Both the position numbers and the translations under genes were made by a program. Shown piece by piece: positions 6,461 to 22,994 of a stretch of DNA of 64,000 nt. The notes beneath the pieces were generated by a model, which did no database searches, was not told where the DNA came from, and was given only the letters and a program-made list of their open reading frames with translations. Source of the DNA: Streptomyces sp. SID9727 (GTDB lineage: Bacteria; Actinomycetota; Actinomycetes; Streptomycetales; Streptomycetaceae); contig NZ_JAAGNI010000136.1 in assembly GCF_010550605.1 (NCBI RefSeq), forward strand, positions 1 to 64,000. The letters are read 5' to 3'. Every line of letters starts with the position of its first letter. Within the stretch, counting starts at the first letter, position 1.

Positions 6461-6512
6461 CGCACACGGCCCCGGTGACGGCACAGGACAGGGGCGTGAT
6501 CACGCCAGGTTC

Positions 6513-6576: not shown

Positions 6577-6731
6577 CAGGGGTGCTCCCCGGGCAGTTTC
6601 CGCGTGTGACCTTCGCCGCTCCGGCACCAGGGGGTGGGCAGTCTGGTTACCCGCAAGTAGCATGACCGGAGCGGCGTGCCTCCGGGCGCGCCCCGCAGCA
6701 GTGCCATCCCGCACCCTGGAGGAGAGCCATC

Positions 6732-7958
6732 GTGCCTCGTACCATCCGGGACGTCGTCTTCGTAGACGGCGTCCGCACCCCGTTCGGCAAGGCGGGCCCG
6801 AAGGGCATCTACCACGAGACCCGCGCCGACGATCTCGTCGTGAAGGCCATCCGGGAGCTGCTGCGCCGCAACCCGGACCTGGACCCCAAGAAGATCGACG
6901 AGGTCGCCATCGCCGCGACCACGCAGATCGGTGACCAGGGTCTGACCCTCGGCCGCACCGCCGGCATCCTGGCGGGCCTGCCCCAGTCCGTCCCGGGCTA
7001 CTCCATCGACCGCATGTGCGCGGGCGCCCTGACCGCCGTCACGTCGACGGCCGGCTCCATCGCCTTCGGCGCGTACGACGTCGTCGTCGCCGGCGGTGTC
7101 GAGCACATGGGCCGCCACCCGATGGGCGAGGGCGTGGACCCGAACCCGCGGTTCGTGTCGGAGAAGCTGGTCGACGAGTCCGCGCTGTTCATGGGCATGA
7201 CCGCGGAGAACCTGCACGACCGGTACCCCACGATCACCAAGGAGCGCGCCGACGCCTACGCGGTGCGGTCGCAGGAGAAGGCCGCCAAGGCGTACGCCGA
7301 CGGCAGGATCCAGCAGGACCTGGTGCCGGTCTCGGTGCGCCGCACGAACGCGGAGGCCGGTGAGACCGGCTGGGGCCTGGTCACCGCCGACGAGCCGATG
7401 CGCCCGGGCACCACCATGGAGTCCCTGGCCAACCTGAAGACCCCGTTCCGCGCCCACGGCCGCGTCACGGCCGGTAACGCCGCGGGTCTCAACGACGGCG
7501 CCACCGCCTCGCTGCTCGCCGCCGAGGACGTCGCGCGCGAGCTGGGCCTCCCGGTCAAGATGCGCCTCGTCTCGTACGCCTTCGCGGGCGTCGAGCCGGA
7601 GGTCATGGGCTACGGGCCGATCCCGGCCACCGAGAAGGCCCTCGCCCAGGCCGGTCTCTCCATTTCGGACATCGGTCTCTTCGAGATCAACGAGGCGTTC
7701 GCCGTACAGGTGCTGGCCTTCCTGGAGCACTACGGCATCGCCGACGACGACGCCCGCGTCAACCAGTACGGCGGCGCGATCGCCTACGGCCACCCGCTGG
7801 CCTCCTCCGGGGTCCGGCTGATGACCCAGCTGGCCCGTCAGTTCGAGGAGCACCCCGAGGTCCGCTACGGCCTCACGACCATGTGCGTCGGCTTCGGCAT
7901 GGGCGCGACGGTCGTCTGGGAGAACCCGCACTTCGAGAACGCCGGAGGCGACAAGTGA
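6732..7958 (+). CDS. fadA: Acetyl-CoA C-acyltransferase (thiolase)
   Basis: 408 residues. It performs thiolytic cleavage of 3-ketoacyl-CoA, the last step of fatty-acid beta-oxidation. The nucleophile Cys96 lies in SIDRMCAGALTA, the catalytic His in YGHPLASSGVRL, and the acid/base Cys in TTMCVGFGMGA. GTG start with GGAGGA about 8 nt upstream. Its stop overlaps the start of the FadB gene in a GTGA, so the two are translationally coupled and likely form the alpha/beta subunits of one complex. Confidence 0.93.
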   Translation: MPRTIRDVVFVDGVRTPFGKAGPKGIYHETRADDLVVKAIRELLRRNPDLDPKKIDEVAIAATTQIGDQGLTLGRTAGILAGLPQSVPGYSIDRMCAGALTAVTSTAGSIAFGAYDVVVAGGVEHMGRHPMGEGVDPNPRFVSEKLVDESALFMGMTAENLHDRYPTITKERADAYAVRSQEKAAKAYADGRIQQDLVPVSVRRTNAEAGETGWGLVTADEPMRPGTTMESLANLKTPFRAHGRVTAGNAAGLNDGATASLLAAEDVARELGLPVKMRLVSYAFAGVEPEVMGYGPIPATEKALAQAGLSISDIGLFEINEAFAVQVLAFLEHYGIADDDARVNQYGGAIAYGHPLASSGVRLMTQLARQFEEHPEVRYGLTTMCVGFGMGATVVWENPHFENAGGDK

Positions 7959-10084
7959 GCACCACCACCGAGCTTCTGAAGGGTGCGGCCGAGCTGTTCC
8001 CCGGCGAGGTCGTCACCCAGGCGCACGTACGCCACCTGGACCTGCCGGCCGGTGCGGGGCGCTTCGCCCTCATCACGCTGGACAACGGCCTGGACCACAC
8101 CAAGCCGACCACCTTCGGACCGCAGTCGCTGGCGAACCTGGATGCCGCGATCGACCAGGTCGAGAAGGAGGCCGCCGAGGGCGCGATCACCGGCGTCGGC
8201 ATCACCGGCAAGCCGTTCATCTTCGCGGTCGGCGCCGACCTCAAGGGCGTCGAGCTGCTCAAGGAGCACAAGGACGCGCTGGCCATCGGCAAGGGCGGCC
8301 ACGACGTGTTCCGCCGGCTGTCCACCCTCGCGGTGCCCACGTTCGCGTACTACAACGGCGCGGCGATGGGCGGCGGTGTCGAGGTCGGGCTGCACTGCTC
8401 GTACCGCACCGTCTCGAAGGCGCTGCCGGCGTTCTCGCTGCCCGAGGTCTTCCTTGGTCTGGTCCCCGGCTGGGGCGGCTGCGTGCTGCTGCCGAACCTG
8501 ATCGGCGCCGACCGCGCGGTCTCGGTGATCATCGAGAACTCGCTGAACCAGAACCGCCAGCTCAAGGGCAAGCAGGTCTTCGAGCTCGGCATCGCGGACG
8601 CGCTCTTCGAGGGCGCGGACTTCCTGGAGCGGTCCCTCGTCTGGACCGCGGACGTGCTCAACGGCACGGTCACGGTCGAGCGCCCCGAGGTCGACCGCGG
8701 GGACGCCTGGGACCAGGCCGTCGCGCGCGGCCGGGCCATCGCCGACTCCAAGGTGCACGGCGCGGCCCCGGCCGCGTACCGCGCGCTGGAGATCGTCGCC
8801 GCGGCCAAGGACGGCGACCTGTCCGCCGGCTTCGACCGCGAGGACCAGGCCCTGGCGGACCTGATCATGGGCGGCGAGCTGCGGTCCGGGATCTACTCCT
8901 TCAACCTCGTCCAGAAGCGCGCCAAGCGCCCGGCCGGGGCGCCGGACAAGAACCTGGCGCGCCCGGTCACCAAGGTCGGCGTGGTGGGCGCGGGCCTGAT
9001 GGCCAGCCAGCTCGCCCTGCTGTTCCTGCGCCGCCTGGAGGTGCCGGTCGTGCTGACCGACATCGACCAGGAGCGCGTCGACAAGGGTGTGGGCTACGTC
9101 CACGCCGAGATCGAGAAGCTGCTCGGCAAGGGCCGCATCAACCAGGACAAGGCCAACCGCCTGAAGGCCCTGGTCTCCGGTGTGCTGGACAAGGCGGAGG
9201 GCTTCTCCGACGCCGACTTCATCATCGAGGCGGTCTTCGAGGAGATCGGTGTCAAGCAGCAGGTGTTCGCGGAGGTCGAGGCGGTCGCCCCGGCCCACGC
9301 GATCCTCGCCACCAACACCTCGTCCCTCTCGGTCACCGAGATGGCGTCGAAGCTGAAGAACCCCGAGCGGGTCGTCGGCTTCCACTTCTTCAACCCGGTC
9401 GCGATCCTCCCGCTCCTGGAGATCGTGCGCGGCGAGAAGACCGACGACGCGTCGCTGGCCACCGCCTTCGGGGTCGCCCGCAAGCTGAAGAAGACCGCGG
9501 TGCTGGTGAAGGACGCCCCGGCGTTCGTCGTCAACCGCATCCTCACCCGCTTCATGGGTGAGATCCAGAACGTCATCGACGAGGGCACCCCGGTCGAGAC
9601 GGCGGAGAAGGCCATCGAGCCGCTCGGCCTGCCGATGTCCCCGCTGGTGCTCCTGGAGCTGGTCGGCCCGGCGATCGGCCTGCACGTCTCCGAGACCCTG
9701 AACCGCGCCTTCCCGGAGCGCTTCACCGTCTCCGAGAACCTGGCGGCGGTCGTCAAGGCCGGCAAGCGCGGCTTCTACGTGTACGACTCGGGCGCCCCGG
9801 TCCTCGACCCCGAGGTCGCCGCCCTCCTCAAGCAGGGCGACACCGTCCTGACCGAGCAGCAGGTCCGCGACCGCGTCCTGGACGCGGTGGCCCAGGAGAT
9901 CGGCCTGATGCTGGACGAGGGCGTCGTGGCCGAGGCCCAGGACATCGACCTCTGCCTGATCACGGGCGCCGGCTGGCCCTTCCACCTGGGCGGCATCACG
10001 CCGTACCTGGACCGCGAGGGCGTCTCGGAGCGCGTGAACGGCAAGAAGTTCCTGGCGGCGGGCGTGGCGAGCGTTCCGGCGTAA
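7955..10084 (+). CDS. fadB: Fatty oxidation complex alpha subunit: enoyl-CoA hydratase / 3-hydroxyacyl-CoA dehydrogenase
   Basis: 709 residues from the GTG overlapping the thiolase stop. The N-terminal crotonase domain (about 1-300) has the oxyanion segments FAVGADLKG and NGAAMGGGVEVGL. The dehydrogenase domain begins at VGVVGAGLMASQLALLF (NAD-binding), followed by the family signatures NTSSLSVTEMA and RVVGFHFFNPV, then the C-terminal 3HCDH helical domain. It hydrates trans-2-enoyl-CoA and oxidises the product to 3-ketoacyl-CoA for the upstream thiolase. It is cytosolic. A strong convergent terminator follows. Confidence 0.94.
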   Translation: MSTTTELLKGAAELFPGEVVTQAHVRHLDLPAGAGRFALITLDNGLDHTKPTTFGPQSLANLDAAIDQVEKEAAEGAITGVGITGKPFIFAVGADLKGVELLKEHKDALAIGKGGHDVFRRLSTLAVPTFAYYNGAAMGGGVEVGLHCSYRTVSKALPAFSLPEVFLGLVPGWGGCVLLPNLIGADRAVSVIIENSLNQNRQLKGKQVFELGIADALFEGADFLERSLVWTADVLNGTVTVERPEVDRGDAWDQAVARGRAIADSKVHGAAPAAYRALEIVAAAKDGDLSAGFDREDQALADLIMGGELRSGIYSFNLVQKRAKRPAGAPDKNLARPVTKVGVVGAGLMASQLALLFLRRLEVPVVLTDIDQERVDKGVGYVHAEIEKLLGKGRINQDKANRLKALVSGVLDKAEGFSDADFIIEAVFEEIGVKQQVFAEVEAVAPAHAILATNTSSLSVTEMASKLKNPERVVGFHFFNPVAILPLLEIVRGEKTDDASLATAFGVARKLKKTAVLVKDAPAFVVNRILTRFMGEIQNVIDEGTPVETAEKAIEPLGLPMSPLVLLELVGPAIGLHVSETLNRAFPERFTVSENLAAVVKAGKRGFYVYDSGAPVLDPEVAALLKQGDTVLTEQQVRDRVLDAVAQEIGLMLDEGVVAEAQDIDLCLITGAGWPFHLGGITPYLDREGVSERVNGKKFLAAGVASVPA

Positions 10085-10099
10085 CGCGTTCGTCTGTGA

Positions 10100-10144
10100 C
10101 GCGGACGGGCCGTACGGATTTCGTTTCCGTACGGCCCGTCCGCG
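10100..10144. terminator. Bidirectional terminator between convergent operons
   Basis: A 19-bp perfect stem (10100-10118 with 10126-10144) around loop TTTCGTT lies between the stops of fadB and the phosphodiester glycosidase, which face each other. T-rich bases flank the loop rather than the stem. Confidence 0.8.
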
Positions 10145-10151
10145 TGACGCC

Positions 10152-11411
10152 CTAGGCCGCCACGACGACCAGTGCGTCGGCCACCGCGCGCTCGCTCACC
10201 TTCGCACCCTCCGCCCCCCTGGGGCGGTTACGGACCTGCCCCAGCACGACCATCGTCGTGGAACCGCCGCCGTCGAGGTTCAGGGCGTCGTGGGCGCGCC
10301 ACGCGCGCATCAATTCAGCCGCCTCGGCCATGGTCACCCCGATGCTGGCGCCGGGGTCACGGCCGTCGACCGTCATGAGCAGGAGGGTCCCGTCACGAGT
10401 GAACCCCGCCAGGGTCCGGGGGTGGCGCTGGGAGAGCGCGGTCGGGGAGACCCCGTTCGCCTCGATGTTGATGTCGACGCGGCCGTCGCGCAGCAGCCGG
10501 GGCCCGGCCTGGAGCACGGTCAGGTTCTTCCCCGACAGCCGCCGCCCCGCGCTGTCGTAGACCTGCGACGTGATGCGCAGGACGGTGTCCGGCAAGGCGT
10601 GGCGGCGCAGCCAGGCCGCGGCGGCGCCGGTCCCCTGCAGGACGCGGCCGCCGGCCGGCACGGGCCCTCCGGCCGGTGTGCGGAGACGGACCACGCGGCC
10701 TCCGGCGGCGAGGACGGCTTCGACGGTTCCGGCCGGCGCACGGGCCGCCTCGGTTCCCCACTGCGGGGTGAACAGCACCAGTTCATCGCGGTCGGTGCAG
10801 AGCTTGTTGTGAGCGGGGGCGGTGTGCCGCTGCCCCTGGAGCACGTCGCCTCCGACTCCGCCGCATCCGACGATCCGGCCGGGCGTCCGGTTGACGCCGT
10901 CGATCAGCCGCGCAGCGCCGTCCTTGGCCACCACGCGGCTCACCGAGCGGGCTTCGGTGATGCGTCCGGGGACGGCGTCCTCTCCCAGAACCAGGGCGGT
11001 ACGTCCGCTCGCCGCCTCACTGAGCAGTACGTTGTTCTCGACGTACAGCCCGAGCGGGTCCCCGTCGTAGCCGCTGAAGACCGCACTGGTGCGGATGTCG
11101 AAGAAGGAACCGTTCACGGCGGCGACCGCCCCGGCCCGCTGCGCCATGGACCGCACGGTCTCCGCCGTGTCCAGGCGGGCGCCGTGCACCGCGCCCAGCG
11201 TGACCGCCGCGTCCGGCGCGACGGACAGCACCTGGTGGCGCACGGGGCCGGCCGGGAGACGGACCGTGTGCTCCTCGTACCGGACGCCGGGGGGAAGCGG
11301 GCCGACGGAGGGGGTTCGGCGGGCGGGAGGGCGGAGCCTCGGCGCCGGCGCGGTGTCGCAACCGCTCAGGGCCAAGCCGCCGGCCGCGGTCAGGAACAGC
11401 CGACGCCTCAT
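10152..11411 (-). CDS. Phosphodiester glycosidase (NAGPA-domain) lipoprotein
   Basis: 419 residues, last gene of the five-gene operon. The N-terminus RRRLFLTAAGGLALSGC is a signal peptide with a lipobox, so the enzyme should sit on the outer face of the membrane. The body matches the phosphodiester glycosidase/NAGPA family: AAVNGSFFD in the first half and DALNLDGGGSTTMVVLG near the C-terminus, with a conserved central Cys (IVGCGGVGGD). Family members cleave sugar-1-phosphodiester bonds, as in the human enzyme that uncovers GlcNAc-P-mannose. Beside a TagF-like polymerase this suggests trimming or remodelling of a phosphodiester-linked wall polymer; that role is my inference. ATGA overlap with the upstream gene. 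Confidence 0.85.
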   Translation of the reverse strand: MRRRLFLTAAGGLALSGCDTAPAPRLRPPARRTPSVGPLPPGVRYEEHTVRLPAGPVRHQVLSVAPDAAVTLGAVHGARLDTAETVRSMAQRAGAVAAVNGSFFDIRTSAVFSGYDGDPLGLYVENNVLLSEAASGRTALVLGEDAVPGRITEARSVSRVVAKDGAARLIDGVNRTPGRIVGCGGVGGDVLQGQRHTAPAHNKLCTDRDELVLFTPQWGTEAARAPAGTVEAVLAAGGRVVRLRTPAGGPVPAGGRVLQGTGAAAAWLRRHALPDTVLRITSQVYDSAGRRLSGKNLTVLQAGPRLLRDGRVDINIEANGVSPTALSQRHPRTLAGFTRDGTLLLMTVDGRDPGASIGVTMAEAAELMRAWRAHDALNLDGGGSTTMVVLGQVRNRPRGAEGAKVSERAVADALVVVAA

Positions 11412-12145
11412 CCCGCGAGGGCGCCCGGGAGCAACCCGGTGTTGCTGCCGATGTCCCCCGCGTACACGGTCACCTCGGACCAGTTCCGGTGGCCCCGCGC
11501 GTTCTCGTAACAGACGGAGAAGCGGTCGTAGCCGGCCGCTCCGGGCACTCCCGTGTAGGTGATGCTGCCGTCCGGCGCCGCGGTCACCGTACCCGCCTGT
11601 GGGAGCCCCACGCCGACTACCCGGAGGCCCGCCGCGGCAGCGTCGCGGTCGGGACCGATGACGGCGTAGCCGCCGGACGGGATGGACAGGCTGCGGCCGG
11701 GCACCCAGGCACGGCGTACCCGGAAGCCCGCGTCGGTGATCTGGGCGGACGAGACCAGTTTCTCGCCCGCGTACGACATCACGCCGACGCACACCTTGGG
11801 GAGCAGGACCGCACCCTCGGGAGCGTCGTCGTTCACCGTGAGGACGGCGGTCACCGCCCGGGGCTCGTTTCCGCTCGCGTACGTCGCGAACCGGCCGTTG
11901 GGGAGGTGTCCGAGCCCTTGCAGCCGGGCCATGGTGGCGTGCTCGGCCACGATGTCGTCGAAGATGTAGCCGTACGCGCGGTAGGGGCCGCCCGCGGGCA
12001 GTATCTGCAGGTGCAGGGCGATGTCCTGGCCCGGCACCACGGGGGCCTCGGGGTCCGCGTCGGCGTGGAGCTCCATGAGCGCCGAGACTCCCGGGCGCTC
12101 CGGGTGCGCGACCTGGATACGGGCGAGCGGATACCAGTCATTCAT
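11408..12145 (-). CDS. Unknown protein with Ig/cadherin-like C-terminal domain
   Basis: 245 residues, not recognised as a named family. There is no signal peptide or membrane segment, although both flanking products suit the cell surface. The last ~65 residues (GTVTAAPDGSITYTGVPGAAGYDRFSV, in parts) have the beta-strand pattern of bacterial Ig/cadherin-like repeats. The N-terminal 170 residues are rich in beta and Gly/Pro turns. It overlaps both neighbours by ATGA, so stoichiometric production with the SGNH hydrolase and the phosphodiester glycosidase is likely. It could be a cytoplasmic glycan-binding chaperone or a non-classically exported partner; I cannot decide. Confidence 0.75.
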   Translation of the reverse strand: MNDWYPLARIQVAHPERPGVSALMELHADADPEAPVVPGQDIALHLQILPAGGPYRAYGYIFDDIVAEHATMARLQGLGHLPNGRFATYASGNEPRAVTAVLTVNDDAPEGAVLLPKVCVGVMSYAGEKLVSSAQITDAGFRVRRAWVPGRSLSIPSGGYAVIGPDRDAAAAGLRVVGVGLPQAGTVTAAPDGSITYTGVPGAAGYDRFSVCYENARGHRNWSEVTVYAGDIGSNTGLLPGALAG

Positions 12146-12918
12146 TCGACGACCTCCAAGGTCCGGGTCCGCACCAGTTCGCCGAAGACATCGTCATCCA
12201 GCCACTCCACGCTGTCGGGGGAGAAGCAAGGACGTTCCAGGTTCTCGAAGTAGTCCGCTTCCAGCATCGAGCGGTCCCGGAGTTCACGGGCGATGAAGCG
12301 CGCGCACTCGATCGCTCCGCCGACGCGCAGGTGCGTGTTGTCGGCCACGCCCTCGGGGTAGTTGGGGTGCTCCCCCGGGGCGAGGTAGAGAAATATCTGC
12401 CGCGTGCCGTCCGGACCGGCCTCACGCCACCAACGCGTGCTCCACTCGTTCAGGTCGATCAGCGGTACGGATTTGTCCGCCGCGACCTCCCTCATGGCCA
12501 CGGGGTACATCCCGAGCAGCGGCCGCAGGTTGCCCTGCGCGTCGAAAACCCTGCGCTCGTGGCTGGTCACGAGGACCGGGTGGGCTCCGCGGTCGCGCAC
12601 CGCGTCCACACACTGGCTCAGGCGAGCCCGGTAGTCACGGAACGGCTCGGTGTGTCGGCCCTGGCCGGGCTTCATGTCGATCAGCCCGAACGACAACAGG
12701 ACCAGGTCGTCCGGCCGGGCCTCCCGCAGGAGCCAGGCCAACCTGCCGCGCTCCATGAAGCTGCGTGAACTCGCTCCGGCTCGTGCGCAGTTGACGATCT
12801 CGGCGGAGGGAATGAAGAGGGGCAGTGTCTGGCCCCACCCCGCCATGGGCGCGAAGCTGCGCTGCCGGCGGGTCACACTCGAGTCACCGGCCAGGAAGAC
12901 CGTGCGCGTCCGCGGCAC
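12142..12918 (-). CDS. SGNH/GDSL hydrolase, rhamnogalacturonan-acetylesterase-like
   Basis: 258 residues starting at GTG 12918, which shares one base with the upstream TAG stop. Block I is FLAGDSSVTRR with the nucleophile Ser. The block II Gly lies in RAGASSRSFMERG. Block III is changed to SFGLIDMKPGQ, with Asp where most SGNH enzymes have GxND; this Asp-ending form is also seen in RGAE-type enzymes (GHND). The catalytic Asp/His pair is ADNTHLRVGGA. There is no signal peptide. The likely reaction is removal of O-acyl groups from a glycan or glycan precursor; substrate unknown. It lies in the middle of the glycopolymer operon. Confidence 0.85.
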   Translation of the reverse strand: MPRTRTVFLAGDSSVTRRQRSFAPMAGWGQTLPLFIPSAEIVNCARAGASSRSFMERGRLAWLLREARPDDLVLLSFGLIDMKPGQGRHTEPFRDYRARLSQCVDAVRDRGAHPVLVTSHERRVFDAQGNLRPLLGMYPVAMREVAADKSVPLIDLNEWSTRWWREAGPDGTRQIFLYLAPGEHPNYPEGVADNTHLRVGGAIECARFIARELRDRSMLEADYFENLERPCFSPDSVEWLDDDVFGELVRTRTLEVVE

Positions 12919-15900
12919 TACGCCCACTCCCTGCTGGGGTCCCGATCGTGACGGTCCGTGCCGGTGAGGTCCGCGCCGCCGTCGAGCGCGCTGTGCGTGC
13001 GCGACGGCGCGTCCGGCGCCCAGCTGCTCTCGACCGCCCCCTCCAGTTCGTCGATGGCCCGGAAGACCCGTTCCGAGTTGCTCGTGTCCCGGCGGCCGAA
13101 GAAGGCGTCGACCCGGGCGCGGTACCGCGGCTCCACGGCGAAGCCCCGCTCGATCGTGGCGATGATCTCCCGCACCGTCGCGTCGACGTCGCGGCAGACC
13201 GGGCCGAACCCGTCGCGCTCGAACTCGTAGTAGCCGCGCTTGTAGTGGTTGCCGTAGAAGTCTTCCTCGTCGAACGGCGTGTAGACGATGGGGGTGCCCA
13301 TGTAGGCCACGTCGAAGAAGACCGACGAGTAGTCGGTGACCAGGAGTGAACACTCGCGCATGGCCAGCTGCACGTCCCGTCCGTCACCGGTCACGGTCAC
13401 CGACGGATGGTCGATGCGGAAGTGGTGCAGATAGGGGCGGATCTCATAGTGCGGCATGAACTCCAGTTCCACCCCGCACTGTTCGAGCACGGCCAGCAGG
13501 CGCTCGTCGCGCAGCAGGGTCGAGAAGAACCGGAAGTAGTCGGACGCGGCGAACGGGATCTTCGCCTTGGCCGCCCTGTCGTACGAAGGGGCGACGATGT
13601 CTCTCCGCCAGGTGGGCATCAGAAGCACCCTCGGCCGTCCCGAACGCACGGGCTGCAGGGCGTCGAACCGCGGGAAGCCCGCGGCCGCGACCCGGGCGTA
13701 GCCGTATCCGCAGTGCTCGGCGAAGTACGAGCGCTCCGCCTCGCCCACGGTCAGCAACAGGTCCACGTCGGTGACCTGCTGGTGCACCGAGGGCGCCACG
13801 TCGTTGTAGGTGACCCCGTGCTGGAGGAAGACCCTCCGGTAGTTCAGCAGGTCTCCGTAGCCCCGCAGGAAGGAGCTCTTGCTGAGCTCGGGGAACCCGA
13901 GGTACGCCTCCAGGTCGTACGGGTTGATGAGCCGCTTGGCATGCAGCAGATACATCCGGTACTTGCGCGAGGTGCGGTCCAGGACGTGCCCGTACGGTGC
14001 CACCTTGGCCCGGTCCTTGGCGTCCCCGTTGATGGCGTAGTAGACCTTCCGGCGCGGCTGGTTCTCCCTGATCCACCGGAACAGGTGGTAGGCGTTGTCC
14101 TGCGCGGTGTCGGCCCTCTCACCGATGATCCAGATGTTCTTGCGGTGGAGCCGGGGATAGCTCAGCAGGTAGGCGAGGCGCGTACGCCAGCCCGGTCGGC
14201 CGGGCAGCGCGGACCGCAGCTGGCGCCGCAGATGCCACAGCCGGCCCCGCAGCTTCCGGCCCGCCCCGGTGAAGTAGCGGAAGACCATGGAGTCGTCCTC
14301 GCCGACTCCGAGCCACAGCCAGTCGCGGCCGATCCTGCGCATGCCCTTGAACCGATGCAGCATCAGCCGTGCTCCGACCGGAGCGTCGACGTGACGGTCG
14401 CCGTCGTGGAAGCGCAGGACCACCGTGAGGTCGCGGCCGGCCAGTCCGGCGAGCGCCTTCGGCGCCGCCGCCGCGCGCCATCCCCCGAACCAGTCCCGTT
14501 CGTTCCTGACCCGCCACCGGTCGCGCCGGTACACCTGCTCGGCGGGGATCGCCACGCTCCTCGTCCCGTCCGTGCAAATCAGTTCGATGCGGTTCGTGAA
14601 GAGCTGGGAGATGTCGACGCCCGTCAGGGTCATCAGACCCTCGAACTGAAGCTCGCCGTCCCGGTAGCGCACGCTTTCGAGTACGGCCTTCTGGCGCTCC
14701 ACCCGCAGCAGGCTGGACGCGACGCCGTCGGCCGCGAGCCGCCGGTACATGCCCGTCTCGTCCAGTTGCAGCGACGGCTCGTACTCGGGCTTGGAGAACG
14801 GGTCGCAGAACAGCGGGAAGTTGCCGGTGCGGACGGCGTGGTGCTGGATCCGTGACACGGGGTGCGTCACGTACTGGAGCAGCACCTTCTCCGGGATCCG
14901 GGCGTAGACGGCGCACAGGTCCTCGAAGACGTCCGCGATCTCCGTGCGGTTCATGATGCGGTGGTAGTTGCGCAGGAACGGCTGGTAGGAGCGGACCACG
15001 AAACGCTGGACCAGGAGCGCCATGGGCTCCTCCAGCCGTTCGGCGTAGTCCAGCAGGTACCGGTTGAGGCGGAGCCGCTGGCGGACCTTGACCGGGTCGT
15101 TCCAGTCGACGTCGAAGAGCGAGTCGTTCTGAGCGGGATCGCGTTGGAAATAGACGTACCGGTCGACCATGCTGAAGGTCCGGGCGGTCGCCAGCGCCAG
15201 CATGCTGACCCACGTCTCGACGAACATGCCGCCGTCCGACGGCCGTATCCCGTGGTCACGCAGCATCGAGACGCGGAAGAGCTTGTTCCCGAGGTCGACC
15301 GAGAACAGCATGTGCGGAGCCTTGGTCACCAGGTCGGTCCGGCCCTTGGCGCCCCCGCCGAAGTACCGCTTCCACGGTTCGTTGGCGTTGCGACGCGGTC
15401 CGGGGAACGTGTCGTAGTTCCCGATGGCCACATCGACGTCGTGCTTGACGGCCGACTCGGTGAGCTGTCGCAGACTGTCGGCACCGAGAATGTCGCGGCC
15501 ACTGGCGAACAGCACGTAGGGGGCGACGACCTCGGCGAGGCCGTGCTCGAAGGCTGCCGCCGCGCCCTGCGGGGGGTGCCGGAGCACGGAGGCGTTGCGG
15601 TAGTAGGCGACGAAGTTGTGCAGGAACTCGCCCGTACGGTCGGTGGAACCGTCGTCGACGAACACGATCTGCGTCTGGGCGAACATGCTCTGGGCCGCCA
15701 GCGACCTCAGTGACTCGTTCAGATGGTGCTCGTCGTTGTGGCAGTGGACGACGACCGCGGCCTGGTACGGACCGGGCTGGGACACCCGCTGCGGGGCTTC
15801 GGCGCCGTGCCACCAGTTCCAGGGAGTTCCCCTGCGGGTGTCCAGGGCGGTACGCTCCCCGGTCTCCGGCCGCAGCGCGACGTTCCCGCTGACGGTCTCG

Positions 15901-17420
15901 TACATCTCGTACGTTCCGGTCGGGCCCTCGTAACGTTCCCGGGTGATGTCGATGCCGTGGATCGCCACGGTCGTGGTGGCGCGCTCGCCCGCGTGGCGGA
16001 CCTGGACGAAGAGGTTCCAGACTCCTTCGCCGGTCGCCGCCCCCACGCTGCCCTTCAGGTCGAGGACCGACTGGTAGTGCACACGGTGGTCGTCCGTCTC
16101 GACCGCGTTGACCGGGAAGACGTGGTCCCTCTTGGTACTGCGCAGCCGCAGCACGGCCTTGAGTTCGATCTTGCCGCCGGTGGAGAACCTGCCGAACTGA
16201 TTGAGCAGGTATCCGGACAGGTGGAGTTCATCGCCCCGTATCTCCACCTCGGTCGCCTGGTTGAACAGCCGCGCGTCCGTCAGCGGCTTGCCGACGAGGT
16301 CGAGGTCCGTGACGTCGAGGAAGCGTTCCGCGTGGGGAAGGTGCAGCAGCGCTTCGGACCAGTAGACGCGCTGGTCACGCTCGACGAGGTCCGAGCTGAG
16401 CACGCTCCGGCGTTGCGCGTAGTCCGAGACGGACAGCGCCAGGTCCACCCGCCCGTGCATGAGGCAGAAGGCGCGGACCCGCTCCAGCACGCCGCACAGC
16501 TCGTAGACGGAGGGCCCCAGGGAGCGCAGGTACGGGCCCACGACAGCGGCGAAACCCCGCCGGTACCGTTCGTCGCCCGAGCGCAGTTCGCGCGCGTACA
16601 GATGCAGGTCGTGAGAGAGGAACTTCACCGCCTTGTGCGCGAGGAGTTCGTCCTCCCCGACCTGGCGCAGGAAGGAGTCCGTGTACTGGTGGACGGCGAC
16701 CCGGTCCTGAATGCTGCGCAGTTCGCCGCGGCGGTTCGTTATGGAGGGCGCGGAGGAGTCGCGTTCCCACATCCAGCGGTACACGGGGGCGGTGAGGAAG
16801 GTGATCGAACCGGCCCAGTAGTTGGCCAGCGTGGAGAAGTACGTGTCCTCGTAGTAGACGCCCTCGGGAAACCGGACCCCGTGGTTGTGCAGGAAGTCGA
16901 GCCGGTACAGCTTGCCCGCCGCGATCGGGTCGTCGAAGAGCTGGGGCAGTGCGCGCAGCCCGGCCACCGTACGCGGGGAGGCGTAGAGCTGCGGCTGCCA
17001 GACCGTGGTCTCCTCAGTGTTGAGGTTGACGCGCAGGGCGCGCCCGGCGGTGATGTCCGAACCCGTGACGACGGCCGAGGCGAGCAGTTCCTCGCACGCC
17101 TTGAGGGGGAGTTCGTCGTCCGCGTCCAGGAACATCACGTACTGGCCCGTGGCGTTCATGATGCCGTTGTTGCGCGGTGCCCCGACACCGCCGCTGTTCT
17201 GCGGACGCTCGACGATCCGTACGCGCCCGTCGGCCGCCGCGAACTGCCGCGCCACGTCGAGGGTCCCGTCGGCCGAGGCGTCGTCGACGACGATCACCTC
17301 GACGTTCCGGTGCGTCTGGGCGAGCGCGGACTTCAGGGCCCGGCCCAAGGTGGCGGCGGCGTTGTACGCGGGAACCACGACGGAGACCGTGTAGGCCGCC
17401 GGGTCGACTGCCGGACTCAT
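12918..17420 (-). CDS. Giant fusion: two family-2 glycosyltransferases plus CDP-glycerol glycerophosphotransferase (TagF/TagB-like)
   Basis: 1500 residues. Domain 1 (about 8-240) is a GT2 fold with SVVVPAYNAAATLG, VVDDASADGT and the metal-binding FLDADDE. Domain 2 (about 550-760) is a second GT2 with AAVVVHCHNDEHH and FVDDGSTDRTGEF. The middle (about 800-1080) is less clear. The C-terminal ~400 residues from NIWIIGERADTAQDNAYHL are a TagF/TagB domain: FLQHGVTYNDV, LLMPTWRRDIVAP, FMPHYEIRPYL and VTDYSSVFFDVAYMGTP. It would build a polymer of alternating sugar and polyol-phosphate at the inner membrane face. The bound polyol (glycerol, ribitol or other) is not known. Overlaps the CDP-alcohol transferase gene by ATGA. 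Confidence 0.9.
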   Translation of the reverse strand: MSPAVDPAAYTVSVVVPAYNAAATLGRALKSALAQTHRNVEVIVVDDASADGTLDVARQFAAADGRVRIVERPQNSGGVGAPRNNGIMNATGQYVMFLDADDELPLKACEELLASAVVTGSDITAGRALRVNLNTEETTVWQPQLYASPRTVAGLRALPQLFDDPIAAGKLYRLDFLHNHGVRFPEGVYYEDTYFSTLANYWAGSITFLTAPVYRWMWERDSSAPSITNRRGELRSIQDRVAVHQYTDSFLRQVGEDELLAHKAVKFLSHDLHLYARELRSGDERYRRGFAAVVGPYLRSLGPSVYELCGVLERVRAFCLMHGRVDLALSVSDYAQRRSVLSSDLVERDQRVYWSEALLHLPHAERFLDVTDLDLVGKPLTDARLFNQATEVEIRGDELHLSGYLLNQFGRFSTGGKIELKAVLRLRSTKRDHVFPVNAVETDDHRVHYQSVLDLKGSVGAATGEGVWNLFVQVRHAGERATTTVAIHGIDITRERYEGPTGTYEMYETVSGNVALRPETGERTALDTRRGTPWNWWHGAEAPQRVSQPGPYQAAVVVHCHNDEHHLNESLRSLAAQSMFAQTQIVFVDDGSTDRTGEFLHNFVAYYRNASVLRHPPQGAAAAFEHGLAEVVAPYVLFASGRDILGADSLRQLTESAVKHDVDVAIGNYDTFPGPRRNANEPWKRYFGGGAKGRTDLVTKAPHMLFSVDLGNKLFRVSMLRDHGIRPSDGGMFVETWVSMLALATARTFSMVDRYVYFQRDPAQNDSLFDVDWNDPVKVRQRLRLNRYLLDYAERLEEPMALLVQRFVVRSYQPFLRNYHRIMNRTEIADVFEDLCAVYARIPEKVLLQYVTHPVSRIQHHAVRTGNFPLFCDPFSKPEYEPSLQLDETGMYRRLAADGVASSLLRVERQKAVLESVRYRDGELQFEGLMTLTGVDISQLFTNRIELICTDGTRSVAIPAEQVYRRDRWRVRNERDWFGGWRAAAAPKALAGLAGRDLTVVLRFHDGDRHVDAPVGARLMLHRFKGMRRIGRDWLWLGVGEDDSMVFRYFTGAGRKLRGRLWHLRRQLRSALPGRPGWRTRLAYLLSYPRLHRKNIWIIGERADTAQDNAYHLFRWIRENQPRRKVYYAINGDAKDRAKVAPYGHVLDRTSRKYRMYLLHAKRLINPYDLEAYLGFPELSKSSFLRGYGDLLNYRRVFLQHGVTYNDVAPSVHQQVTDVDLLLTVGEAERSYFAEHCGYGYARVAAAGFPRFDALQPVRSGRPRVLLMPTWRRDIVAPSYDRAAKAKIPFAASDYFRFFSTLLRDERLLAVLEQCGVELEFMPHYEIRPYLHHFRIDHPSVTVTGDGRDVQLAMRECSLLVTDYSSVFFDVAYMGTPIVYTPFDEEDFYGNHYKRGYYEFERDGFGPVCRDVDATVREIIATIERGFAVEPRYRARVDAFFGRRDTSNSERVFRAIDELEGAVESSWAPDAPSRTHSALDGGADLTGTDRHDRDPSREWA

Positions 17421-18580
17421 CGCACCGAACCTTCGGTTTCCACCCAGTAGGGCAGCGTCCTGAGCTGCTGCGTCTCGATGTCCTGGGCATGGTGGGGATA
17501 GGGCTGGGGGTAGGGCTGGAAGCCCAGGTCGTCGTCCTGCTCGGGGACCGGGAACTGCTGTGCCAGGGCGGCGCGCCGCTCCTCGTCGAGACCGCCGGCC
17601 CGGCGGTGGCGTCCCCGGTGGAGGTTCTCGGCGATCACGCCGGCCTTGGAGGGCTCGGTGGCGAGCTTCTCCATGAGCCGGGTGAAGTCACGGGTGGACA
17701 GCCAGAACTTGTACATGATCACGAGCTCGAAGAGGCCGAGCGCGGCGGCGGATATCGCGGTCGTCCACAGGATCCGGCCGATCAGGGGCGCCACGATGAA
17801 GATGAACATCTGGAACTCGATGCCGCTGATCAGGTGCGGCCGGATGCGGCTGCGCAGCAGGGCCTGGCGGAACCGCGTGTACCAGGGGAAGCGGTTGCGG
17901 AACTGGGCGTGCAGGTCGACCACCTCGCCGGCCTGCTGCTTGAGGACCTCGGCCTCGACGCCCGGGTTCTCCCGGAGCAGGTCCTCGATGAAGACCACCT
18001 TGGGCTGGTCGGCCTCCGTGTCGGCCGCGTCGCTCCGGGCCTGCTCCTCCTCCAGCGCCTTGCGCTCCAGCGTGACCTTCTCGATCTTCATGCGCATGGA
18101 CATGCGCATCTTGTAGATCTGCAGGGCGTCGACGTACCGGAGCATGTCGAGGAAGACGACGGCCAGGGCGGCGAGCAGGTAGAGCTCGTTGTGGGTGCTC
18201 AGGTACTGTCCGCCCATCAGGGCGAGCGCGCAGAAGAGGACTCGGATGCGGTCGAAGACGTAGTCGAGCCAGCCGCCGAAGACGGTGCCGTTGCCCTTGA
18301 GACGGGCGAGTTTGCCGTCGATGCAGTCGAGGATGAAGCTCAGATGGTAGAGCGCGGCCCCGATGACGAGGGAGGCGGTGTCGCCCTTGAGGAAGAAGTA
18401 CGCGGAACCGAGGCCGACGAACAGCGCCGACCAGGTCACCCGGTTCGGGGTGATGAACTTGAACTTGGCCATCACGATCAGCATGCGCGTCGCGACCGGG
18501 TCGACCAGCAGGACGGTCCACCAGGCATCGCGCTTCTTGCACGTCAGCTTCTGAACGGCTCGCAGCGACAGTTTCCCCAT
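17417..18580 (-). CDS. CDP-alcohol phosphatidyltransferase family membrane protein
   Basis: 387 residues, first gene of the operon. The complete CDP-OH-P catalytic signature D-x2-DG-x2-AR-x8-G-x3-D-x3-D is visible starting at DCIDGKLARLKG. Several hydrophobic segments surround it (SLVIGAALYHLSFIL, LYLLAALAVVFLDML and a pair near residues 260-300). A charged helical insert (KIEKVTLERKALEEEQARSD) and a long polar C-terminal tail are unusual additions. Such enzymes move a phospho-group from a CDP-alcohol onto an acceptor alcohol. Here it may make the lipid or polyol-phosphate donor for the fusion protein downstream, which is inference. ATG start. Confidence 0.88.
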   Translation of the reverse strand: MGKLSLRAVQKLTCKKRDAWWTVLLVDPVATRMLIVMAKFKFITPNRVTWSALFVGLGSAYFFLKGDTASLVIGAALYHLSFILDCIDGKLARLKGNGTVFGGWLDYVFDRIRVLFCALALMGGQYLSTHNELYLLAALAVVFLDMLRYVDALQIYKMRMSMRMKIEKVTLERKALEEEQARSDAADTEADQPKVVFIEDLLRENPGVEAEVLKQQAGEVVDLHAQFRNRFPWYTRFRQALLRSRIRPHLISGIEFQMFIFIVAPLIGRILWTTAISAAALGLFELVIMYKFWLSTRDFTRLMEKLATEPSKAGVIAENLHRGRHRRAGGLDEERRAALAQQFPVPEQDDDLGFQPYPQPYPHHAQDIETQQLRTLPYWVETEGSVR

Positions 18581-18787: not shown

Positions 18788-20386
18788 TCAGATCCCGGCG
18801 ATCACGGTCCACTGGGCGAAGACGAGACCTGCGTCGCCCGGCTCCTGGCGCGTGATCCGCAGCCGCCCGTCGTCCCCCAGCACCGCGACGACCGCACGGC
18901 CGAGGCCGTCGACCGCCACGGCAGGCGGCACCACCGAGGTCTCCCCCACGTCGAACCACCACACGCCGCTCTCCGGCCGCCCGTCCGCATGCGCCGCCAC
19001 CAGGCACGCGCCGGACTCCCCCGACCGCGCCAGCACCGTGCAGCCCCAGCCCTGGATGTCCACGCCGGCGACCCCGGCCACCGGCCCCATGCCGTCCGGC
19101 CCGCCCAGGCTCACAGCACCGGCCCCCGGCACCTGCACACAGACCTCGTTGCTCCCCGCGTACCGGTAGCGCACCGACCCCGCCTCAGGAGCCGCCGACA
19201 GGGTGCCGGGGGCCGGGCTGACCGATCCCGTCGCGTCCAGCGTCCACTCGCCCGACGGCACATCGCGGTGCCAGCGGATGGCGGCCGCCGCGTCCCTCGC
19301 CCTGGCCCAGACCTCGGGTACGCCCGAACCACCGGGCTGCGCGACGAGTTCGTCGGCGACGCGGACCCCGCGAAGGTGCTGCCAGCCGCTCCACCGCCCG
19401 TTCGTTCCCTGCCGGCGGACGCTGACGCTGTGGCCGAAGTTGCGTACGAAGACGGCGAGGTCACCACTGGCGTCGAAGGCCGCGGCGGGAAAGCCGACCT
19501 CGCGGCTCTTGCCGGGGTCCTTGCCGTTCGGGTTGCCCACGGAGTGCCAGGCCCCCAGCGCACGCCCGCTCTGGTACTGGGTGGTGTGGACCACCTCGAC
19601 CCAGTCCGTGCCGCCCGGCCCCTTCCGGCGGACCAGGCCGAAGAGGTGCACATAGCCCTGGGCATCCTGGACCACTTCGAGTCCGGGGAGAAGATCGGGT
19701 CCTTCGAGGAGTTCCGGGCCGGTCCACTCGTTCCCGCCCACGCGCCTCTCGGTCCAGCGCAGCACCCCCGCGGCCGACGGCAGATAGGCGGAGAGCCTGC
19801 CGTCCATGCCCCTGACGAGCCAGCGGAGCGGGAGCGGATGACGCTCACACGCCCGGGGCCCCAGCGTGGCCGGCACGCCCGCCCGGTGGCACCGTACGAA
19901 CACCGGCGAACCGCACTCCCGCTGGTACTGGCGGGCGGCGGCGATCGTGGCGCGCGCCACGCTGCCGCGCAGAGGCGGCTCCGTGACGACCGGGCCCTTG
20001 GCCTCCGGGTCGAGGGAGGTGTGCTCGGGGTCGGGGTCCAGGGTGGTCACCAGCAGCGGCCGCAGGTGACGCAGTGCCTCGAGCACCCGGGCGGTGGTCT
20101 TCCCCGGCTCGGCGTCGATGACCCAGGGCTCACCCGAGACCCGGACGCCGCGGTCCGCGGCGCCGGCCATGGCGCGGTCGAGCGCCGCCCGCTCCTCCGG
20201 GGTGCCGGGCTGGGCGCAGACGACGTCGACCGACGGGCCGCTCCGCTGCAAGGCCAGAGGTTCCACGGCGTCCCCGGGGCTCGCGACCACGATGGCCACG
20301 CCGCCGGCGTCACCCGCCCGAGCGGCGCCCACACGATCCTGTGCCCGCCTGCCGCGCTCCGGCCGACGCCCCCCTCTGCGTGCCAT
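18788..20386 (-). CDS. PIG-L-like (apparently inactive) N-domain fused to a beta-propeller-like domain
   Basis: 532 residues from ATG 20386, with GAGGAAGG about 8 nt upstream. Residues ~20-190 resemble a PIG-L/LmbE deacetylase: VAIVVASPGDAVEPLAL stands where active enzymes have A-HPDDE. A TLDPDPEHTSLD segment and VRCHR further on also recall that family, but the metal-binding His-Pro-Asp-Asp is gone. Residues ~200-530 are a repeated beta-sheet domain (WLVRGMDGRLSAYLPSAAG, LRWTERRVGG, GRWSGWQHLRGV) of the kind seen in sugar-binding propellers. No signal peptide is visible. The C-terminal part is related to the protein at 21864-22994 on the other side of the LCP gene. Confidence 0.72.
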   Translation of the reverse strand: MARRGGRRPERGRRAQDRVGAARAGDAGGVAIVVASPGDAVEPLALQRSGPSVDVVCAQPGTPEERAALDRAMAGAADRGVRVSGEPWVIDAEPGKTTARVLEALRHLRPLLVTTLDPDPEHTSLDPEAKGPVVTEPPLRGSVARATIAAARQYQRECGSPVFVRCHRAGVPATLGPRACERHPLPLRWLVRGMDGRLSAYLPSAAGVLRWTERRVGGNEWTGPELLEGPDLLPGLEVVQDAQGYVHLFGLVRRKGPGGTDWVEVVHTTQYQSGRALGAWHSVGNPNGKDPGKSREVGFPAAAFDASGDLAVFVRNFGHSVSVRRQGTNGRWSGWQHLRGVRVADELVAQPGGSGVPEVWARARDAAAAIRWHRDVPSGEWTLDATGSVSPAPGTLSAAPEAGSVRYRYAGSNEVCVQVPGAGAVSLGGPDGMGPVAGVAGVDIQGWGCTVLARSGESGACLVAAHADGRPESGVWWFDVGETSVVPPAVAVDGLGRAVVAVLGDDGRLRITRQEPGDAGLVFAQWTVIAGI

Positions 20387-20714: not shown

Positions 20715-21818
20715 ATGAGCCAAGACGACACCACCCCCGGCCGGGGGAGCTCCCCGGAGACCCCCCGCCGCCGCGGGCGCAAGCGTGTCCGGACGCGGGG
20801 CCAGCGGATACGGCGGGCGATCCTGGTGTCGGCCCTGGTCCTCGTCGTCGCCGTGGGCGGCACCGCGTGGTGGTTCTGGAGCCACCTCAACGGCAACATC
20901 AAGGGCGTCGACATCAACAAGGCGCTCGGCGAGGACCGTCCCGAGAAGCTGCCCACCAGCGGGCAGAACCTGCTGGTCCTGGGGTCCGACTCGCGGGCCG
21001 GCTCGGAGAACAAGGAGCTGGGCGGCGGGGCCGGGGTCAGCGGGGCCCGGTCCGACACGGCGCTCGTCGTGCACATTCCGGAGGGCCGCCAGAAGGCCGT
21101 CGCCGTGTCCATACCGCGCGACACCCTGGTGACCCGTCCCGAGTGCACCAAGGCGGACGGTTCGACGGTGCCGACCAAGGACCGTGTGATGTTCAACTCC
21201 GTGTACTCGCTGGTCGGTCCGGCGTGTGTGGTCAAGACCGTCGAGAAGATGTCCGGCGTGCGCATCGACCACTACCTGGAGATCAACTTCGCCGGGTTCA
21301 AGGGACTCGTCGACGCCATCGGCGGTGTGAACATCGACGTCAAGGAACCGATTCACGACAAGAAGACCGGGCTGAACGTCGACGCCGGGCCGCACAAGTT
21401 CGACGGCACCGAGTCCCTGAAGTTCGTCCGCACCCGCTACAGCCTCAGCGACGGCACCGACCTGAGCCGCATCGGCCTCCAGCAGCAGTTCCTCATGGGC
21501 CTGCTCAAGGAGGTCAAGAGCCAGGACCTGCTGGGCAGCCCGACGAGCGCCTACAAGATCGCCAACTCGGCCACGGCGGCCCTGACCACCGACGAGGAGC
21601 TGGCCTCGCTCACCTCGCTCGCGAAGTTCGCCCGGTCCATGAACGGGGTCGACCCGGACACGATGGAGACGATCATGCTCCCCGTCGAGTACGACAAGAT
21701 CGACCACAACCGCGTCGTGGCCGTGGAGTCGCGGGCGAAGGCGCTGTGGAAGGCCATCCGCGAGGACACCCCGATCCCCGAGTCCGCCAAGAAGTCGCCG
21801 GCGCTCGGCCAGGGCTGA
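20715..21818 (+). CDS. LytR-CpsA-Psr (LCP) family glycopolymer ligase
   Basis: 367 residues. A basic cytoplasmic start (TPRRRGRKRVRTRGQRIRR) leads into one membrane segment (AILVSALVLVVAVGGTAWWFW), and the rest lies outside. LCP motifs are present: LVLGSDSRAGSEN, SDTALVVHIPEG, AVSIPRDTLV with the pyrophosphate-binding Arg/Asp, NFAGFKGLVDAIGGV, and FVRTRYSLSDGTDLSRIGLQQQFL. LCP enzymes transfer wall polymers from undecaprenyl pyrophosphate to peptidoglycan, which fits the TagF-like operon next door. Start ATG, GAGG about 11 nt upstream. Confidence 0.93.
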   Translation: MSQDDTTPGRGSSPETPRRRGRKRVRTRGQRIRRAILVSALVLVVAVGGTAWWFWSHLNGNIKGVDINKALGEDRPEKLPTSGQNLLVLGSDSRAGSENKELGGGAGVSGARSDTALVVHIPEGRQKAVAVSIPRDTLVTRPECTKADGSTVPTKDRVMFNSVYSLVGPACVVKTVEKMSGVRIDHYLEINFAGFKGLVDAIGGVNIDVKEPIHDKKTGLNVDAGPHKFDGTESLKFVRTRYSLSDGTDLSRIGLQQQFLMGLLKEVKSQDLLGSPTSAYKIANSATAALTTDEELASLTSLAKFARSMNGVDPDTMETIMLPVEYDKIDHNRVVAVESRAKALWKAIREDTPIPESAKKSPALGQG

Positions 21819-21863: not shown

Positions 21864-22994
21864 TCACACCCGCTGGGCGGGTCCCAGCGCGAGCCCGGGC
21901 TCGTCGTTCTGCCGGGCCACGTACAGCCCGCCGCGCTCGCCGATCATGGCGAGCACCACGCGCCCCGCGCCGTCGAGCGCCAACGCCGGGGGTGCCGAGG
22001 TGCGCTCGCCCGTCGCCGCCCACCACAGGCCGCCCGCCTCGTTCTCCGTACCGCAGGCCGCGAGCAGCACGCGGCCGTCACGGGTGCGGTGGGCGAGCAC
22101 CGTGCAGTCGTAGTCGTCCAGCTCGGCGCGGAGCACGGCGACCCGGCCCTCGGCCGCGGTGTCCCCGATCGTGAGGGGCGGGGCGTCGAGCCGGTGGGCG
22201 ACCAGGGTGCCGGTGGTGGCGTCGGTCCAGTAGAAGGTGTTGCGGTCGGGCGCGGTCTCCAGCACGCTCACCGCGCCGCCGGCGATCTTGATGTTGAGGT
22301 TGTCGCCCTTCTGGAAGGCGCCGCCGGGCTCGGTCTGGGCCCACCGCATGGCCTTGTTGTTGCCGGGGACCAGAAGCTCGATGCGGCCCGACTCGGCGAC
22401 CGAGACGGCCATCGTCTCCTTGCCCAGGGTGCCCCTGAGGTCCTTCCACCCCTCCCACTTGCCGCTCTTCGCCTCGCGTCGCAGCATCATGCCGCCGTTG
22501 GCGTTGCGGACGAAGACGTGGACCAGGCCGGTCGGGGCGACGGCGACGACCGGCGGACCGATGCGGGCGGCTCGCTCGTCCCCGTCCTTGTACGGATTGC
22601 CCACGGTCCGCCAGGAGGTGACCGGGCGGCCCGTCTGGTACTGGGTGGCGTGCACGAGGTCGACCTGCGGCTGCTCCTCGTCGCCGTGCACCGTGCGGCG
22701 GCCGATGAAGTGGACGTAGCCGTCCGGGCCCTGGGCGACGCCGAGGTGGGTCAGGGCCGGGACCGGGAAGAACTCGGGGCCCTGCCAGCCGGGGCCGCCG
22801 GGGCGTTCCTCGGTCCAGCGCAGAAGGCCGTCCTCGTTGCGGGCGTAGGCGGTGAGTCTGCCGTCCTTGCCACACACGAGCCAGCGTCCGTCGACCGGGG
22901 TCTCGCCGGTCCCACGGGCGCTTTCGACGTCTCGCAGGGCGTCGTCGTCCTTGCCCGAGGCGCTCCCCTGGGCACGTCTCGACCTGACTCGCAT
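21864..22994 (-). CDS. Beta-propeller-like repeat protein, paralogue of the 18788-20386 C-domain
   Basis: 376 residues, no signal peptide or membrane segment. It shares a block order with the neighbour: WLVCGKDGRLTAYARNEDG, LLRWTEERPGG, GPDGYVHFIGRR, VHATQYQTGRPVTSWRTV-GNP, VHVFVRNANGG, GKWEGWKDLRGT and a final GLYVARQN. The short basic/acidic start lacks the PIG-L-like part. ATG start with AGGAAG 10 nt upstream. Conserved Trp-rich strands suggest carbohydrate binding, and its position beside an LCP ligase suggests a role at the wall, but function is unknown. Confidence 0.75.
   Translation of the reverse strand: MRVRSRRAQGSASGKDDDALRDVESARGTGETPVDGRWLVCGKDGRLTAYARNEDGLLRWTEERPGGPGWQGPEFFPVPALTHLGVAQGPDGYVHFIGRRTVHGDEEQPQVDLVHATQYQTGRPVTSWRTVGNPYKDGDERAARIGPPVVAVAPTGLVHVFVRNANGGMMLRREAKSGKWEGWKDLRGTLGKETMAVSVAESGRIELLVPGNNKAMRWAQTEPGGAFQKGDNLNIKIAGGAVSVLETAPDRNTFYWTDATTGTLVAHRLDAPPLTIGDTAAEGRVAVLRAELDDYDCTVLAHRTRDGRVLLAACGTENEAGGLWWAATGERTSAPPALALDGAGRVVLAMIGERGGLYVARQNDEPGLALGPAQRV

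Follow-up and report, generated by a model that had tools for sequence, protein, structure and literature searches.

What does a phosphodiester glycosidase of the NAGPA family contribute to an operon that builds a wall glycopolymer? The question is posed by five overlapping minus-strand open reading frames at positions 10152-18580 of a 64,000-nucleotide stretch of the Streptomyces sp. SID9727 genome (contig NZ_JAAGNI010000136.1, positions 1 to 64,000, hereafter the window). They encode, in gene order, a membrane CDP-alcohol phosphotransferase (17417-18580; PF01066, CDP-OH_P_transf, E 2e-11), a 1500-residue polymerase, P0002, in which two GT2 domains are fused to a TagF domain (12918-17420; two stretches of Glycos_transf_2 followed by Glyphos_transf, PF04464), a rhamnogalacturonan-acetylesterase-like SGNH hydrolase (12142-12918; PF13472, Lipase_GDSL_2, E 2e-11), the protein P0004 (11408-12145) and the NAGPA-family phosphodiester glycosidase, a probable lipoprotein (10152-11411; PF09992, E 8e-42). 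Successive genes are joined by ATGA at 17417-17420, TAGTG at 12916-12920 (with the alternative GTG start at 12927 the overlap would be 10 bases), ATGA at 12142-12145 and ATGA at 11408-11411. Genes and junctions agree with a preliminary description made from the sequence alone, and Pfam bears out the protein families it named.

Judged by comparison across genomes, the five genes are a replaceable cassette at a conserved chromosomal site. The comparison covered 27 named loci with SGNH relatives (L101-L127; 26 titled Streptomyces, one Actinobacteria bacterium), drawn from 80 returned loci of which 28 were viewed (L101-L127 and L175), the other 52 coming from Bacillus, Clostridia and others; genes were called by a script based on third-position GC and labelled by BLAST. 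All but one of the 27 (L124) share the same place beside a thiolase/3-hydroxyacyl-CoA dehydrogenase-like (fadAB) pair, which in the window lies on the plus strand at 6732-10084, named from its translations and placed by synteny, and forms the far border of the variable locus. Two cassettes alternate here. Type A, to which the window belongs, comprises the CDP-alcohol phosphotransferase, GT2-GT2-TagF polymerase, SGNH hydrolase and P0004, NAGPA being optional (18 of the 27 named loci). Type B (the other nine, plus L018 and L019) carries a shorter TagF-like protein, SGNH, P0004 and a TarS-like glycosyltransferase, with a TarIJ-like IspD-SDR fusion in 8/11 and a β-propeller protein in 10/11. The TarIJ-like label was taken from L019 (IspD E 1e-44 plus adh_short) and the TarS-like label from L018 (TarS_linker E 9e-12), both then being extended by BLAST; the gene finder called no TarIJ in L018, L109 or L125. 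A LytR-CpsA-Psr (LCP) ligase gene, at 20715-21818 on the plus strand of the window (PF03816, E 1e-44), is also found in the sequence fetched for 15 of the 26 named loci beside fadAB, of both cassette types, and an epimerase gene occupies the LCP-side end of many of the remainder. The earlier view that this is an operon of wall-glycopolymer type is upheld. An accidental run of five genes was rejected, since the cassette recurs at this site in many Streptomyces, and the lower third-position GC of the cassette genes (0.87-0.94) relative to the bordering fadB (0.98) and LCP gene (0.96) fits a variable insert.

Co-occurrence of the five genes, which the preliminary description had singled out for survey, is thus seen at one recurring locus, and within it NAGPA is tied to type A. 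Eleven of 18 named type A loci and none of nine named type B loci carry it (Fisher p 0.003, uncorrected for kinship), and so do 13/20 type A loci once the window and L081 are added; it is intact in 14 and broken in one (L017) of the 24 distinct type A loci obtained by adding L017, L214, L215 and L216; none of the 11 type B loci examined has it. In this count L016, which has the same gene calls as L113, was treated as the same record; L213 is identical to L116 over 17.5 kb and L217 to L112 over 18.6 kb. The nine type A genomes of our two genome draws divide into five with NAGPA at the locus (G000, the source genome; G019, with a broken frame; G059, G097 and G088) and four without (G056, G111, G139 and G131). 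Across 61 Streptomyces genomes, locus-type NAGPA occurs in three of four type A genomes (one with the broken frame) and in none of the 57 others (Fisher p 1e-4, uncorrected for kinship, locus type being assigned by tree where sequences were fetched and otherwise by score).

Because NAGPA relatives are widespread in the genus, a tree served as the control. The 13 locus NAGPAs fall on one side of a single branch (100/98 support), separate from 14 stand-alone Streptomyces NAGPAs, and their clade spans both polymerase lineages. The tree took 14 of the 18 stand-alone proteins that score above 100 bits; for the other four (those of G028, G016 and G020 and a second one of G017) and for all those below 100 bits, the assignment as not locus-type rests on score. 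The broken L017 copy was excluded from alignment, tree and lipobox count. Given this separate clade, we reject the idea that a common Streptomyces NAGPA was dropped into the cassette at random, and we regard the link between a single NAGPA clade and a single cassette type, as drawn from these sequences, as real. A single recruitment with several later losses would be a simple history. The window NAGPA shares more identity with its counterparts in L110/L117 (55-56%) than with those in L103/L112 (47-48%), while its polymerase is closer to L103/L112 (59-60%) than L110/L117 (46%), and these opposite affinities suggest reassortment as well. Several individual loci are of note. In L017 (G019) the NAGPA frame is broken at about 11463-12697, and the close relative L121 (97-99% over long stretches) is intact; in G059 (L081) SGNH and P0004 are missing and NAGPA begins 72 bases after the polymerase. 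The source genome also has a stand-alone paralogue, and L096 (G055) has a NAGPA of the stand-alone clade some 6 kb away from a relative of the CDP-alcohol phosphotransferase with 50% identity (6060-7073 and 13202-14794), on opposite strands and away from the fadAB locus.

The cassette protein has, according to its predicted model, the NAGPA fold and core residues. Its Pfam score is 143.8 bits against a curated cut-off of 25, and the AlphaFold model (pLDDT, the predicted local distance difference test, of 85) matches guinea-pig NAGPA (6pku) with Z 27.9 over 236 residues (root-mean-square deviation 2.5) and a putative exported Burkholderia protein (6ozd) with Z 43.6. The motifs LDGGGS, DGR and PRT are conserved, an alignment with 6pku covers the DG, E and LDGGGS stretch, and N100, F104, R332-T333, D349-G350-R351, E363 and D380-GGGS are kept in both Streptomyces NAGPA clades. 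The likeness to mammalian NAGPA, the mannose-6-phosphate uncovering enzyme (PF09992, DUF2233), thus extends to fold and several core motifs at only 22% identity, and the present protein is distinct in being a predicted bacterial lipoprotein in a wall-polymer operon. Its N-terminus, MRRRLFLTAAGGLALSGC, is a lipoprotein-like signal with arginines (MRRR...LSGC), and a lipobox-like motif, sought with a loose pattern, is present in all 13 locus NAGPAs in or just upstream of the called start, the poorest matches being TGAC in L106 and ATGC in L114 and L115.

Overlaps of the translational coupling type are conserved across type A loci as we call them, with starts assigned by our own script. A 4-base overlap joins CDP-alcohol phosphotransferase and TagF genes in 17/20 loci and SGNH and P0004 in 12 of the 18 with both genes called, and P0004 and NAGPA overlap by 4-19 bases in 7/12; the remaining five have called gaps of 55 to 2216 bases between the two genes, some starts probably having been placed too late, as is likely for the NAGPAs of L104, L107, L117 and L121. 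The gene finder also missed the SGNH gene in L117, which tblastn detects. Co-variation of the proteins was assessed by pairwise distance correlations over 18-20 type A loci, with fadB distance partialled out and 2000 permutations, none of which reached any observed cassette correlation; two deep polymerase lineages dominate the values, which therefore reflect few independent events. The polymerase correlates with P0004 at r 0.97 (partial 0.97) and with SGNH at 0.89 (partial 0.89), and SGNH with P0004 at 0.93 (partial 0.93), so that SGNH and P0004 resemble partners of this enzyme. The tie of NAGPA is weaker, with r 0.62 to the polymerase (partial 0.62, n=13) and 0.73 to P0004 (partial 0.71, n=12), similar to the CDP-alcohol phosphotransferase with the polymerase (r 0.60, partial 0.61). 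SGNH and P0004 neighbour each other in both cassette types and so appear tied to synthesis of wall teichoic acid type generally, not to NAGPA.

The polymerase and its companions bear on the kind of chain that might be made. The TagF domain (PF04464, E 4e-31 and, in a second scan, 1e-32) has its HG, PH and TDYSS motifs conserved in 20/20 type A loci and finds Cps3D (8qoy, E 5e-5) as its best PDB match; among the NCBIfam matches listed for the whole polymerase (25 of 29), all of them glycosyltransferase models, no TarF or TarL equivalog exceeds its cut-off. The first GT2 domain keeps its DxD motif in 20/20 type A polymerases. The second, at about residues 638-643 of the window protein, reads FLDSDD in 12/20 and FASGRD, FARARD or alike in the remaining eight, which include the window and form a single lineage, so that this domain is probably inactive there and the repeating unit less complex than expected from the number of domains. 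The CDP-alcohol phosphotransferase has a complete D..DG..AR(8)G...D...D motif in 20/20 type A loci; its best PDB match is AF2299 (4o6m, E 2e-9), phosphatidylinositol-phosphate synthases matching more weakly. Relatives above 300 bits occur in 7/61 Streptomyces, four at the fadAB locus (G000, G056, G019 and G059) and three (G055, G021 and G027) at 50-53% identity in other contexts; a second draw gave relatives above 450 bits in 7/65 Streptomyces (G000 and G056 again included) and, at E 1e-40, none in 15 other genomes of the order.

For the SGNH hydrolase the PDB matches are yxiM (2o14, E 2e-16) and rhamnogalacturonan acetylesterase (E 7e-6). The block III Asn is missing from the window copy (FGLID) and six others of 18, and the block I Asp is changed in 6/18, leaving activity uncertain. 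Loss of block III does not track polymerase lineage, as L105, L107 and L108 are without the Asn and L103, L106 and L112 keep it. P0004, entered as an unknown protein in the preliminary description, proves to consist of two Ig-like β-sandwich domains (Big_9, E 4e-5; AlphaFold pLDDT 90.4), with Foldseek and VIA matches to general Ig-like modules, and its relatives are found in 5/61 Streptomyces. Its candidacy as an enzyme was rejected since the listed fold matches are Ig-like or similar β modules, which does not itself exclude activity. A crude hydropathy check gave no evident signal peptide in SGNH or P0004.

The donor used by the TagF domain bears directly on the polymer's chemistry. No CDP-polyol synthase lies within the type A cassette, and we searched a set of nine type A genomes for the CDP-glycerol and CDP-ribitol synthase families (PF01467, PF01128). 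Six of this set have an extra PF01467 or IspD candidate, of one or both kinds, among them the source genome (contig C375). The other three (G059, Streptomyces termitum and strain LaPpAH-108) have only two PF01467 proteins, which we take to be CoaD- and NadD-like, and one strong IspD. Each also carries a weak IspD match barely above the family cut-off (28.6-32.4 bits), probably GlmU; most of the searched genomes have a match of this sort. G059 is listed as 100% complete, as is G088, with which the LaPpAH-108 genome (G065) has an identical stretch in common; the S. termitum genome (G064) carries no completeness value. Either an uncharted CDP-polyol route exists in these three genomes or the TagF domain uses another donor. 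We also observed, on contig C375 of the source genome (L204, about 9200-10412), a cytidylyltransferase beside a second small CDP-alcohol phosphotransferase and glycosyltransferase-like genes, possibly another polymer locus.

We put at roughly even the chance that NAGPA acts as an extracytoplasmic trimming or release enzyme for the cassette's polymer, leaving the bond unspecified. In such a scheme the GT2-TagF fusion and the membrane CDP-alcohol phosphotransferase would assemble a phosphate-containing glycan in the cytoplasm, SGNH and the two-Ig-domain P0004 acting with the polymerase as their co-variation suggests. Machinery encoded elsewhere would export the chain, an LCP ligase like the one encoded nearby would attach it to peptidoglycan, and the NAGPA lipoprotein on the outer face of the membrane would hydrolyse an α-sugar-1-phosphodiester in the presumed polymer substrate or at its end, either trimming the polymer or freeing it from carrier or wall. 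Teichoic-like polymers are built on a linkage unit in which GlcNAc-1-phosphate joins the lipid carrier and, after LCP ligation, muramic acid. As NAGPA would lie outside and the polymerase inside, and as linkage-unit bonds of the NAGPA type exist, trimming or release is ranked first. In its favour are the locus-specific clade, the restriction to type A in the loci examined, the overlap with P0004 in 7/12, the position right behind the polymerase in G059, the lipobox-like motifs, the NAGPA fold and core motifs, and the LCP gene close by.

GT2 and TagF enzymes are known for glycosidic and polyol-phosphate bonds and are not known to make anomeric sugar-1-phosphate diesters. The operon alone therefore does not show the backbone to be the NAGPA substrate, and the GlcNAc-1-phosphate linkage is at least as likely a target as a backbone bond. 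Of the original proposal, that a glycosidase made together with the synthase trims, releases or caps a sugar-phosphate polymer, the link between NAGPA and cassette stands, and the chemistry of the polymer is put in doubt by these enzymes and by loss of the second GT2 DxD motif at 8/20 loci, the window's lineage. The LCP-made GlcNAc-1-phosphate bond is chemically of the same kind as the GlcNAc-1-P-6-mannose substrate of mammalian NAGPA. By this analogy NAGPA might hydrolyse the GlcNAc-α-1-phosphate bond that LCP ligation creates between linkage unit and peptidoglycan, a specific assignment that we consider tentative and rather unlikely. Excerpts of PMC12024695 describe hydrolysis of GlcNAc-1-phospho-mannose diesters by the mammalian enzyme.

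Several observations weigh against a trimming or release function. Nine of the 24 distinct type A cassettes lack NAGPA and one more has it broken, so the polymer appears viable without it; NAGPA relatives at E 0.001 are present in 54/61 Streptomyces genomes, the family being common without such an operon; the correlation with the polymerase is only moderate; and the loose lipobox pattern was also matched at a spurious place in L017. Trimming that is 'built-in', as the preliminary description had it, is not sustained by these absences or by an r of only 0.62. On comparison of the loci, NAGPA is an accessory, dispensable part of the cassette. In one of the genomes without it, G131 (L215, 7542-8783), we note that a secreted PLD-like protein (PF13091, E 3.5e-20), of a different phosphodiesterase family, fills the SGNH-P0004-NAGPA slot of the type A cassette.

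An alternative is that the polymer has sugar-1-phosphate diesters in its backbone or side groups and that NAGPA trims that backbone. We know of no established gene set for the poly(diglycosyl 1-phosphate) of Streptomyces coelicolor. Excerpts of PMC7831098 and PMC11481543 place teichulosonic acid and poly(diglycosyl 1-phosphate), the latter with α-GlcNAc-1-P (compare S. coelicolor), in Streptomyces walls, and the three of nine type A genomes without a third CTP_transf_like or second strong IspD-like protein are consistent with a TagF domain that may not use the usual CDP-polyols. The backbone alternative is nevertheless improbable given the polyol-phosphate and glycosidic bonds for which PF04464 and GT2 enzymes are known, and in the five cassette proteins, to which that search was confined, no Stealth-type sugar-1-phosphotransferase match was found. 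Alternatively, NAGPA could be a passenger at the operon end or a general surface enzyme scavenging nucleotide sugars or phosphodiesters, as its absence from nine loci, the stand-alone paralogue in the same genome and the hydrolysis of UDP-GlcNAc by mammalian NAGPA (excerpts of PMC12024695) would allow; the locus-specific clade over both polymerase lineages, the overlap with the preceding gene in 7/12 loci and the absence from all 11 type B loci make us doubt this.

Receptor editing, in which NAGPA removes a capping sugar to block lectin-guided toxins or phages and is gained and lost in an arms race, would suit a variable locus flanked by lectin-like β-propellers, wall glycans that are the variable receptors of Streptomyces umbrella toxins (excerpts of PMC13274773) and prophage depolymerases predicted to have NAGPA-like domains (excerpts of PMC9862828), but the umbrella-toxin receptor locus in the PMC13274773 excerpts is a different one, beside ribosomal L21/L27, and we think this alternative very unlikely. 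Of these flanking proteins, one lies at 18788-20332 on the minus strand (a probable lectin-related propeller with a weak PDB match to Photorhabdus lectin 8q82, E 0.004, and relatives in 14/18 named type A loci) and another, also on the minus strand, at 21864-22994 (8q82, E 2e-11; no Pfam match). A propeller in type B matches Phage_RBD_prop (E 2e-11; L018, 5353-6384), and the propellers beside both cassettes may be linked to surface glycan recognition. Related proteins between fadB and the cassette in L081 (4315-6000) and L217 (4135-5817) have a weak, below-cut-off Asp2 match (PF16929). In the window, an inverted repeat with 23-nucleotide arms and a 7-nucleotide loop (10096-10148) separates the convergent ends of operon and fadB and is likely a terminator common to both.

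The cassette resembles several known systems in part. With wall teichoic acid (tag/tar) loci it shares the PF04464 polymerase and nearby LCP ligase gene, type B adding the TarS-like glycosyltransferase and, in 8/11, TarIJ-like protein, whereas the type A cassette lacks a CDP-polyol synthase and carries a CDP-alcohol phosphotransferase and, in many loci, NAGPA. Cps3D and other TagF-like capsule polymerases are likewise large and multidomain with a TagF-like domain, but the similarity is weak, and here the setting is a Gram-positive wall and two GT2 domains precede TagF, the second having lost DxD in the window's lineage. The wall teichoic acid-teichuronic acid (WTA-TUA, utr) locus of Streptomyces griseus, in the excerpts of PMC13274773, is likewise a variable wall-glycan locus with TagF and TarIJ, and makes a ribitol-phosphate polymer carrying teichuronic-like chains; it sits elsewhere, beside ribosomal L21/L27, and its counterpart in the source genome may be on contig C72 (L100, GT2-TarF-like, with the ribosomal genes guessed from gene size).

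At the end of Lactococcus eps clusters lies EpsL, which we take to be a NAGPA-related COG4632 protein. Excerpts of PMC12599335 treat epsL as a conserved terminal gene of unassigned function, and those clusters differ in making a Wzy-type secreted polysaccharide. A control search with PF09992 gave a match in Lactococcus lactis, which may be EpsL. Among the papers listed by searches limited to the Creative Commons-licensed PMC literature, none on NAGPA in wall teichoic acid operons was found.

Release and remodelling of wall glycopolymers in filamentous actinomycetes are poorly known, and we are aware of no enzyme that reverses LCP ligation at this sugar-1-phosphate bond, no search for one having been made. 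If NAGPA did cleave that bond, one cassette would carry the genes for making its surface polymer and for removing it. A single locus that swaps two cassettes, with or without NAGPA, moreover provides natural strain pairs for the effect of NAGPA on the wall, and the same pairs bear on whether lectin toxins or phages shape the variable wall polymers of these bacteria.

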